Assembly: GCF_003590945.1 (NCBI RefSeq)
Contig: NZ_QYUK01000016.1
Location: forward strand, 124,001-188,000
Direction: 5' to 3'
Source: Oleomonas cavernae
GTDB lineage: Bacteria; Pseudomonadota; Alphaproteobacteria; Zavarziniales; Zavarziniaceae
Length of the DNA stretch: 64,000 nucleotides
The position numbers and the translations under genes are program-made. This document shows, piece after piece, positions 61,051-64,000 of the stretch; positions within the stretch are counted from its first letter, which is position 1; every line of letters begins with the position of its first letter. The notes beneath the pieces are model-generated. The model did not search any database and was not told where the DNA came from. It saw only the letters and a list, made by a program, of their open reading frames with translations.

Positions 61051-62259
61051 CTACCCGATCGCCTGATCCAGATCGGCGATCAGGTCGCCCGCATCCTCCA
61101 GGCCCACCGAAAGGCGCATGAAGCCCTCGGTGATCCCCACCCGCTCGCGCTCCGGCGCCGGCAGCCGCTGGTGCGTGGTCGACGAGGGATGGGTGACCAG
61201 GCTCTTGGAATCGCCCAGGTTGTTGGAGATGTCGATCAGTTCCAGCCGGTTCATCAGCTTGAACGCGCCCGCGCGCCCGCCCTCGACCTCCAGCGTGACG
61301 ACCGAGCCGCCCTGGCCCGACATCTGGGCCAGCGCCAGGTTGTGCTGGGGATGCGACGGCAGGCCGGGATAGGACGCGGCCTTCAGCCGGCCCTGGCCCT
61401 TGGCGCCGTCGAGGAAGCCCGCCACCTTGGCCGCATTCTCGCAATGCCGCGTGACCCGCAGCTCCAGCGTCTCCAGGCCTTTCAGCAGCAGCCAGGCATT
61501 GAACGGCGACAGCGACGGCCCGGTGTGGCGCAGGTACTGGTTCAAGTGCCTGTCGAAGAAATCCTGGCCGCACAGCACAGCGCCGCCCAGGCACCGGCCC
61601 TGCCCATCGATATGCTTGGTGGCGGAATAGACCACCACGTCGCAGCCGTATTCCATCGGCCGCTGCAGGATGGGCGTGGCGAAGACATTGTCGATGACCA
61701 CGCAGGCCCCGGCCTTGTGGGCGAGGTCCGTCACCGCCTTCAGGTCGATCACGTCCAGCGTCGGGTTGGCCGGGGTTTCCAGGAACACCACGTTGGCGGG
61801 CGCGCGCAGGGCATCTTCCCACTGGTTGAGGTCGCCGCCATCGACATAGGTCACGGAGACGCCGAAGCGCGGCAGGATGTCGTCGAGGATATAGCGACAC
61901 GAGCCGAACAGCGCCCGGCTGGATACCACCCGGTCGCCGGTCTTGAGTTGGCACATCAGCGCGGCATGGACCGCGGCCATGCCCGACGCGGTGGCGCGGG
62001 CCAGCGGTGCCCCTTCCAGGATCGCCATGCGTTCCTCGAACATGGCCGTGGTGGGATTGCCCAGGCGCGAATAGGTAAAGCCCTCGGCCTCGCCCTTGAA
62101 GCGGGCCTCGGCGACTTCGGCGCTATCGTAGCGGAAGCCGGAGGTCATGAAGATCGCCTCGCCGGTTTCGCCGAAATCGGAGCGATTGGTGCCGCCGCGC
62201 ACCAGCTTGGTCGAGAGTTTCCACTTGTCCGCAACGTTGCGGGGCGTACGCCGTGCCAT
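61051..62259 (-). CDS. metZ: O-succinylhomoserine sulfhydrylase MetZ
   Basis: A 402-residue PLP enzyme of the Cys/Met metabolism family making homocysteine from O-succinylhomoserine and sulfide. The cofactor lysine is in YSATKHIDGQGR; YSRLGNPT and ETPANPTLDVID are typical of MetZ. ATG at 62259 is preferred over TTG at 62268. The leader carries a SAM-II riboswitch and a terminator, so expression should fall when S-adenosylmethionine is high. Confidence 0.93.
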   Translation of the reverse strand: MARRTPRNVADKWKLSTKLVRGGTNRSDFGETGEAIFMTSGFRYDSAEVAEARFKGEAEGFTYSRLGNPTTAMFEERMAILEGAPLARATASGMAAVHAALMCQLKTGDRVVSSRALFGSCRYILDDILPRFGVSVTYVDGGDLNQWEDALRAPANVVFLETPANPTLDVIDLKAVTDLAHKAGACVVIDNVFATPILQRPMEYGCDVVVYSATKHIDGQGRCLGGAVLCGQDFFDRHLNQYLRHTGPSLSPFNAWLLLKGLETLELRVTRHCENAAKVAGFLDGAKGQGRLKAASYPGLPSHPQHNLALAQMSGQGGSVVTLEVEGGRAGAFKLMNRLELIDISNNLGDSKSLVTHPSSTTHQRLPAPERERVGITEGFMRLSVGLEDAGDLIADLDQAIG

Positions 62260-62284
62260 GATCACCAAGGGTCCCTGGGCCCAT

Positions 62285-62309
62285 AAAAAAACCCGGCCGA
62301 CGGCCGGGT
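62285..62309 (-). terminator. Intrinsic terminator in the metZ leader
   Basis: On the minus strand ACCCGGCC-GTC-GGCCGGGT followed by six T (62290-62285). It lies just downstream of the SAM-II aptamer and 26 nt before the metZ ATG, so it can act as a SAM-responsive attenuator. Confidence 0.85.
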
Positions 62310-62317
62310 GGAATCCC

Positions 62318-62374
62318 CCGGCCTTTTAGCGGTTTTTAACGTGGCCGCAAGCCGACCGGCTCAAATCCCACGGG
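62318..62374 (-). promoter_or_regulatory. SAM-II riboswitch upstream of metZ
   Basis: The leader matches the SAM-II (metA motif) aptamer: CGTGG (62372-62368) pairs with CCACG (62344-62340), with the GATTTGAGCC and GGCTTGCGGCC segments between. The downstream GTTAAAAACCGCTAAAAGG supplies the conserved TTAAA and GCTAAAAGG that form the pseudoknot. It is followed by a terminator and metZ, a known target class. Confidence 0.92.
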
Positions 62375-62505
62375 AAGCGGAGCATAGGGCGGGAGGGAGG
62401 GGGCGTCAAGGGTTGGGTGGAATGACCGCCACTCGCGTTTGCGTTGAGCCAAAGTAAAATTTCCCGTAACGTCTCAGCTAATGTGCAGCGAAATTGGGGC
62501 TAAAA

Positions 62506-64000
62506 TTGTTTTCCAAGAGGTTACTTACAGCTCTGGTTTCTCGCGGCTATTTCCCACGGGAGCTTCCAGCGACATTCACCACCACAGATTTCGGAGAGCG
62601 CGTTGGTGGAGTAATCGCCGACTGGGAGAAAGCAAAAATATTTACGACAGACAAAGTAAACTACAAGAAATCTGGAAATAGGATTAAATTGTCGTCGTCA
62701 TATACATACAAAATTCCGGAGGCAGAAATTGAAATTATTTCAAAGCCAAAGAGAGGGTACGAACGAAGAAATATTCATATTACCCACCCTCTGCCACAAG
62801 CTCTTTTGTCAAGAGAATTGATAGAGAATTGGAGGACCATCTGTAAATGGACGGCAAAAAGCAAATTTACTATAGATAAATTGGAAATATCGGAAAATTT
62901 CGAGAGATCTATAAAAGATATCAATTTTCGGGTCCATGGTGCAAAGAAAAATTTTATTGAAGCTTCTGCAAATTGGATAGTACAGACGGATATTAGCCGA
63001 TTTTACCCCTCTATTTATACCCACTCCATTCCGTGGGCCGCATACGGAAAGCAAAAGGTGAAGGGCAATTTAAATTTGTACAAGGGGTCTTTGGGGGATA
63101 GACTAGATATATTAGTTAGAGCATGCAATAGAAATCAGACAATTGGGATTCCTATTGGTCCAGAAACCTCAAGAATTCTATCGGAAATAATTTCGTCTCG
63201 TATTGATTTGAATTTCTCTCAGCGAATGCCTTCGATAAAAGTGGATAGCGTAGATAGGCTGCAGGATGATTGGTTCGCAGGAGCAGAGAATTTTAGCGAA
63301 GCTGAAAATATAATATCAGCGATAACGCACGTATATCGGGATTACGGCCTTGAGATAAATGGTGGAAAAACTTCTATTGATAGGATGATCGCCGCCCCAT
63401 TCGCTGGTTGGCGCTCGGAACTTGCATCATTTCTCTCCCACAAGAGCGGCCCACTACGATCAGGTAGACTTAAAGAATTTCTCGATATGGGTTTAAACCT
63501 TCAATCCAAAACACCCAATGATCCAGTTATTAACTATGCCATGTCTGTCATTGAAGGGCAGCGTTACAATGATTCAGACGCTGAAATATTGGAATCATTT
63601 TTGCTTAAAGCTGCCGCTATATCGCCGATATCTTTAGATAAGATATGCAGAGTAATTCTAAATATAAACAACTATACAAAAACAATATCTAAAAGAAGAA
63701 TAGTCAATAGATTTAGATCACTGATCGATATAAATATGCAAAATGGCAACACTTATGAAGTCATTTGGCTACTGTTTACAATCCGAGGACTCAAGAAAAC
63801 TTTTGATTCTAAGGTGTTAACGGAATCATTGGACCTATATAGTGGAAGCGTAATACCTCTTATTTTACTGGAAATGAAGAATAATGGGACGTTTCTCGGA
63901 AAATTACCGATTTCTCGCTGGCAGTCGTCCATCGACGATGAAACCATAAAAAGTGATTGCATTTGGCTTTTGGCATATGAGGGCATGAGGAGAGGATGGC
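62506..64000 (+). CDS. Abi/defence-type reverse transcriptase (C-terminus cut by window edge)
   Basis: At least 498 codons without a stop. After LLTALVSRGYFPRELPATF, the RT core has TDISRFYPSIYTHSIPWA with D162, GIPIGPETSRILSEI near residues 214-228, LQDDW with D254 and D255, and LEINGGKTSI. The catalytic triad is complete. The C-terminal ~200 residues are helical (ending WLLAYEGMRRGW), as in AbiA/AbiK and other unknown-group or defence-associated RTs; subtype is not assignable. No ATG: the frame opens at 62482, so TTG at 62506 (GGGG 5 nt upstream) or 62494 is the start. Codon use and base composition are AT-rich, unlike the rest of the window, which indicates recent transfer. Confidence 0.85.
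   Translation, partial: MFSKRLLTALVSRGYFPRELPATFTTTDFGERVGGVIADWEKAKIFTTDKVNYKKSGNRIKLSSSYTYKIPEAEIEIISKPKRGYERRNIHITHPLPQALLSRELIENWRTICKWTAKSKFTIDKLEISENFERSIKDINFRVHGAKKNFIEASANWIVQTDISRFYPSIYTHSIPWAAYGKQKVKGNLNLYKGSLGDRLDILVRACNRNQTIGIPIGPETSRILSEIISSRIDLNFSQRMPSIKVDSVDRLQDDWFAGAENFSEAENIISAITHVYRDYGLEINGGKTSIDRMIAAPFAGWRSELASFLSHKSGPLRSGRLKEFLDMGLNLQSKTPNDPVINYAMSVIEGQRYNDSDAEILESFLLKAAAISPISLDKICRVILNINNYTKTISKRRIVNRFRSLIDINMQNGNTYEVIWLLFTIRGLKKTFDSKVLTESLDLYSGSVIPLILLEMKNNGTFLGKLPISRWQSSIDDETIKSDCIWLLAYEGMRRGW

Follow-up and report, generated by a model that had tools for sequence, protein, structure and literature searches.

A DRT6-type reverse transcriptase of Oleomonas cavernae from a branch with a variant catalytic box

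The gene at the far edge of the window (the whole 64,000-nucleotide stretch of Oleomonas cavernae DNA that was analysed) is confirmed, by sequence profiles and structural modelling, as a DRT6 (UG12) reverse transcriptase, a known antiphage kind. Judged by alignment, the branch to which it belongs, marked by an RLQDDW catalytic box, is a new active-site variant of the known DRT6. We consider it probable (about 0.8), by analogy with published relatives, that the enzyme acts as a solo reverse transcriptase that would make protein-primed, untemplated ssDNA, toxic upon infection and triggered by a phage protein. Its antiphage function we infer from the family. Family, fold, Asp triad, acquisition, the failure to detect a partner or ncRNA and the subclade-specific box are observations made here.

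The reading frame runs open into the window edge, as a preliminary description had stated, and extension of the contig past 64000 places the stop at C16:188203, 203 bases beyond the window. The complete product has 565 aa (P0001) and ends in NMFSEY. The start codon chosen earlier, at 62506, is a TTG; a second in-frame TTG lies at 62494, and a GGGG 7-10 bases 5' of 62506 favours the former. The catalytic Asp triad had been described as intact, and D162, D254 and D255 are indeed invariant in 58/58 aligned proteins. AlphaFold2 models, one for the window part and one for relative L041, bear out the helical character stated earlier for the long C-terminal part. Features are collected in Table 1.

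Table 1 Features of the gene and its upstream edge (window coordinates).
Feature	Position	Strand	Remark
DRT6-type reverse transcriptase gene, codons 1-498	62506..64000	+	whole gene 565 aa, end C16:188203 outside window; PADLOC Drt6
Glu19, ELP motif	62560..62562	+	aligns with Glu of Drt3b-type L011; putatively with DRT3b E22
Tyr66-Thr67-Tyr68	62701..62709	+	beside low-confidence N-terminal loop; rival primer site, putatively an AbiK/Abi-P2-like loop
Catalytic Asp162, motif A TDISRF	62989..62991	+	alignment
Arg223 of GPETSRI	63172..63174	+	putatively aligns with DRT3b R241
RLQDDW box, catalytic Asp254-Asp255	63256..63273	+	Leu252, Gln253 in place of usual Tyr/Phe, Val/Ile
121-base stretch, metZ-side homology end to gene start	62385..62505	.	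likely upstream edge of acquired piece; scant ncRNA space

Among PADLOC profiles, Drt6 is the best for the protein (486 bits, residues 7-542 on profile 4-497 of 511), followed by Drt4-named models at 369 (PDLC02177) and 355 bits and then by UG30, UG14, UG31, Drt3b and AbiK; AbiK scores 115 bits and AbiP2 93.5. Drt6 is also the top PADLOC model in 6/6 scanned subclade relatives. The NCBIfam match list holds no Drt6 entry, and its DRT models all missed their cut-offs (Drt4, 213 bits against 450; Drt3b, 117 against 350; Drt3a, 26 against 200). In 19 other DRT6-group rows the top PADLOC model is Drt6 in eight and Drt4-named (PDLC02177 or PDLC02179) in 11, and one 'Drt4' model of this pair scores above Drt6 even on the solved DRT6, 9wy8. 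Since these two models beat Drt6 on many DRT6-group proteins, PADLOC annotation of DRT4 versus DRT6 is unreliable; the 'DRT6 group' label of the 45 tree rows discussed below rests on the tree, the PADLOC labels overlapping.

Mean pLDDT is 91.7 for the modelled window part (498 aa) and 92.0 for L041 (563 aa; 52% identical to the window part). Among solved chains, 9wy8 (E 4.5e-49; PDB title 'Cryo-EM structure of the hexameric DRT6') is nearest by sequence search, and Foldseek likewise places it first for both models, with E 1.0e-27, TM 0.86/0.87 and 26% identity for the window part. VIA-align of L041 with 9wy8 gave Z 38.3 and rmsd 2.0 over 487 residues; Z is 32.0 for DRT4, 25.2 for AbiK and 21.8 for Abi-P2. 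In a tree of 58 rows (short search, no bootstrap) the protein falls on the DRT6 side together with 9wy8, separate from UG15/Abi-like rows; SH-aLRT support for the fork uniting all 53 DRT6-group rows is 86, and this fork is drawn open. Within the DRT6 group the protein and the seven close relatives included in the tree make up a single branch (SH-aLRT 100; stem of 1.69 changes per column); 9wy8 occupies another part of the group, and two UG15 reference rows lie outside it. The tree placement proposed in the preliminary description thus puts the gene on the DRT6 side, and what had been called an Abi/DRT-type reverse transcriptase can, on the Drt6 profile, the 9wy8 fold and the tree, be named DRT6 (UG12).

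Searching 84,980 species genomes with an alignment as query gave 339 stretches and 316 relatives, the best 80 of which were used; a single-protein scan of the same genome contigs returned no relative. Among the best 80 of 316, ten are 48-61% identical to the protein and the rest at most 31%. These ten come from Rhizobium, Filomicrobium, Pseudooceanicola, Paracoccus, Pseudorhodobacter, Rhizorhabdus, Aminobacter, an alphaproteobacterium and one Comamonadaceae MAG. On plasmids 199 records matched, eight of them covering at least 80% of the protein; phage records gave four partial matches, none covering more than 80%, and viral contigs 18 loci, none above 34% identity.

The RLQDDW box is present in the protein and in 10/10 close relatives (seven intact frames and three broken ones). 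When 97 long frames were scanned, only the seven subclade members had the Gln of QDD in the box region; it occurs in 0/90 other collected long-frame reverse transcriptases. The pattern used overlooked L118, whose box is RFIDDY. Position 253 is Gln in 8/8 aligned subclade members and Val, Ile, Tyr, Thr or Met in the 45 other DRT6-group rows. Position 252 is Leu in the same 8/8 and Tyr or Phe in 32/45 others, an aromatic residue being absent in 13/45. An RLQDDQ at residue 217 of L061 is unrelated; the catalytic-type box of that protein is RLIDDY at 256. In DRT3b, whose box is YVDD, Y276 and V277 contact the ribose at -1, the last added nucleotide (PMC13174585), so the Leu252-Gln253 change would sit where the growing strand is held. 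A search that left the primary DRT4/DRT6/Drt3 papers and the UG/Abi survey outside its reach, and therefore weighs little, found no publication on DRT6/UG12 active-site variants or terminal Tyr.

Three of the ten close relatives have broken frames and two (L039, L042) end about 50 residues early, the frame-damaged or shortened genes being L039, L042, L045, L047 and L048; an IS110-type transposase gene lies 41 bases beyond the end of one early-ending relative. From these reading frames the gene seems to decay often among close relatives, though draft genomes may hold errors. At the codon level, purifying selection is shown for relatives L041 and L043 (dN/dS 0.067).

DRT4 is described, in two 2026 reviews (PMC13314766, PMC13213688), as a one-gene, tyrosine-primed polymerase whose untemplated ssDNA is stabilised by phage ORF55 until toxic; the same texts present DRT6 as an ORF55-activated relative of DRT4 and call its product unresolved. 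By analogy, the Oleomonas enzyme alone would prime ssDNA from its own tyrosine, without a template. In the uninfected cell this product would be degraded or held low, and during infection an ORF55-like phage DNA-binding protein may shield it; the build-up of ssDNA would then halt both cell and phage (abortive infection). The hexamer, the priming residue, untemplated synthesis, the phage trigger and abortive infection are taken over from published relatives. For DRT6 a structure has been solved and a phage activator is known, yet those reviews leave its product unsettled. The RLQDDW branch supplies natural active-site variants and two candidate primer tyrosines, through which DRT6 priming and base choice could be probed one residue at a time in a compact one-gene system.

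The comparison with known systems is closest for DRT6 itself, with which the protein shares the top PADLOC profile, the top solved full-length fold, the side of the tree and, apparently, a single-gene layout; it differs from 9wy8, at 26% identity, in its box (RLQDDW against RYVDDF) and in having Glu19/Arg223 where 9wy8 has Gln/His. DRT4 (UG15; 9vdo, 9l9s) provides the second-best fold and is likewise published as one-gene, protein-primed and untemplated (PMC13314766 and PMC13213688), but the NCBIfam Drt4 score lies far under its cut-off (213 against 450 bits) and the two UG15 reference rows stand outside the DRT6 group. AbiK and Abi-P2 also combine a reverse transcriptase with a helical domain, and Tyr66/Tyr68 stand where they carry an N-terminal-loop primer Tyr, yet their PADLOC profiles score lower on the protein. 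With DRT3b it shares the aligned Glu/Arg pair, published as base-selecting, and a Tyr at the C-terminal end, but the Drt3b score (117 against 350 bits) and the box differ. The one RVT_1 match in its own genome is the gene itself, so there is no Drt3a partner, unlike DRT3b.

Candidate priming residues were compared across the group. Of 105 proteins collected, 100 have 500-700 aa, and removal of listed rows and clustering at 70% identity left 71; the removal list of ten comprises seven distant viral-contig rows, the UG15 row L038 and the early-ending L039 and L042, none of them Tyr-ended. An exact terminal Tyr occurs in 25/71 non-redundant DRT6-group proteins against 13/670 control ORFs, and a Tyr within the last two residues in 36/71 against 27/670, the controls being mechanically chosen ORFs of at least 150 codons from the same loci, with false ORFs and broken-relative fragments included. 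The Fisher value for the terminal Tyr, 1e-18, takes the rows as independent, and the tree requires at least 13 changes. These changes, with absence in 46/71, mean that terminal Tyr recurs but is not fixed, and so is no strict hallmark. Within the subclade, 6/6 full-length members have a Tyr among the last two residues. The excess over control ORFs makes a C-terminal Tyr a candidate DNA primer, which in this protein would be Tyr565. DRT3b primes DNA from Y666 in its C-terminal tail (PMC13174585), and published work places DRT9 priming at C-terminal tyrosines and that of AbiK and Abi-P2 at Y44 and Y61, each in an N-terminal loop; other literature drawn on is PMC12483538, PMC11077055, PMC8934634 and PMC9508834. 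A rival, putative alternative primer site is Tyr68, which is present in 8/8 subclade members and 2/45 other DRT6-group proteins and directly follows the loop modelled with the lowest confidence.

DRT3b selects bases dA and dC by E22 and R241 (PMC13174585). In L011, which its profile score (675 bits) marks as a Drt3b, a Glu and an Arg align with Glu19 and Arg223, and Arg223 would be the counterpart of R241 on the offsets between two Drt3b sequences. Glu19 is found in 8/8 subclade members and 37/45 other DRT6-group rows; Arg223 in 8/8 and 19/45, and among the remainder Leu occurs 13 times, His seven, Phe four, and Gln and Tyr once each. At both putative base-selecting positions 9wy8 differs (Gln and His), so the specificity of the Oleomonas enzyme may differ and the behaviour of 9wy8 may not carry over.

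The gene has a GC content of 39.2% (GC3 37.8%) against 66.4% for the whole window, and in 1209 windows of equal size placed away from the gene the value never falls below 59.7%. Lying so far under all 1209, it looks horizontally acquired, and from composition and context it looks like a recently acquired single gene. On its upstream side, a SAM_alpha riboswitch (62306-62381, -; 56.3 bits against a gathering score of 36) stands in front of metZ (61051-62268, -). This side is common to four genomes of the genus, and homology stops at window 62372-62384; beyond that point the genes differ in the four genus relatives, so that the comparison yielded no exact empty site. The 62385-62505 stretch is, from this comparison, likely the upstream edge of the acquired piece. 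One of the seven examined genomes of the order has a Drt6 match, namely that of the gene itself. Downstream, a MazE/AbrB-like gene on the opposite strand is convergent and ends 28 bases past the stop. Farther on lies a DUF4172 gene (L002:8601-9715, -; window 64601-65715, outside) that continues in an overlapping second frame; the two overlapping frames suggest a frameshift. We take it to be the N-terminal portion of a gene of the Fic type.

Several observations sit uneasily with the preferred DRT6 reading: the aromatic residue is missing from the catalytic box, several relatives in the subclade carry broken or shortened genes, 46/71 group members lack the terminal Tyr, 9wy8 differs at both putative base-selecting residues, and Drt4-named PADLOC models outscore Drt6 on 9wy8 and on 11/19 other group members. 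In a different view of the product, the enzyme would make base-restricted, protein-templated rather than random DNA, with Glu19 and Arg223 choosing the bases and Leu252-Gln253 remodelling the 3'-end site. Both residues are kept in 8/8 subclade members and align with L011, and their putative DRT3b counterparts select dA and dC, Y276/V277 contacting the -1 ribose (PMC13174585). Yet Arg223 is not Drt3b-specific, being present in 19/45 other DRT6-group proteins; its equation with R241 depends on offsets between two Drt3b sequences; and the box is unlike the YVDD of DRT3b. We regard this specificity as unlikely, if worth keeping in mind, and are equally doubtful of the wider proposal that the RLQDDW branch might be a separate DNA writer, placing base-restricted, protein-templated DNA on the terminal Tyr with the residue at the Arg223 position (Arg/Leu/His/Phe) as a product code. 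That the branch has instead lost polymerase activity or repurposed the fold seems quite improbable: the box aromatic is missing in 11/11 members, frames are broken in 3/10 relatives and end early in two, but the three catalytic Asp are present in 8/8 aligned members, dN/dS between L041 and L043 is 0.067, and an aromatic at 252 is also missing in 13/45 other DRT6-group proteins.

A partner gene or ncRNA past the window, which the preliminary description had thought possible, was not detected in the 28 bases before the convergent gene, by Rfam or by flank comparison. Within 10 kb, Rfam gave nothing above gathering score except the metZ riboswitch (SAM_alpha). Flanking noncoding homology beyond shuffles was found in none of 45 pairs per side except L041/L043, a near-identical sister pair with a conserved flank, and the Oleomonas gene with L039, whose upstream score of 27 against a shuffle maximum of 26 is marginal. 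An overlooked ncRNA template or scaffold, as in DRT2, DRT3a and DRT9, is therefore very improbable, even though up to 121 upstream bases are absent from genus relatives and the L039 score just exceeds the shuffles. That the enzyme belongs to the reverse transcriptases of group II introns or retrons is extremely improbable. Its profile matches to these are weak, at 27.5 bits for group II intron (cut-off 300) and 23.8 for St85 (235), the only retron model among the NCBIfam matches listed. No intron RNA was found by Rfam within 10 kb, and DRT6, DRT4 and AbiK match the fold over its full length whereas a group II enzyme does so over the reverse transcriptase domain only (Z 15.6). The earlier assertion that the protein is neither maturase nor retron agrees with these data.

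For the solo DRT6 reading, the surroundings of the relatives are also relevant: no shared partner was found among the neighbours of nine of the ten close relatives (L045 absent). These neighbours encode a D-Ala ligase and an IS110-type transposase (L039), a GATase and a lytic transglycolase (L040), type III restriction-modification (L043), an aminotransferase (L044), thiC (L046) and a xylose-isomerase-like protein (L047).

More distant relatives have other settings. At L038:1857-5608 a Drt4-type reverse transcriptase overlaps by 4 bases an upstream 704-aa gene for which neither Pfam nor PADLOC gave a match at the thresholds applied. At L006:1489-4022 a DRT6 gene overlaps a match to the PADLOC candidate PDC-S18 (483 bits), behind an integrase-like ORF. 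On rhizobial plasmids, DRT6 genes (L035:96-5677, L036:96-5677) lie 15 bases behind AAA-TOPRIM ATPase and UvrD helicase genes. At L035 these two genes have their top matches in Gabija, namely GajA (610 bits) and GajB (584 bits); to judge from this gene order, DRT6 may act together with Gabija there.
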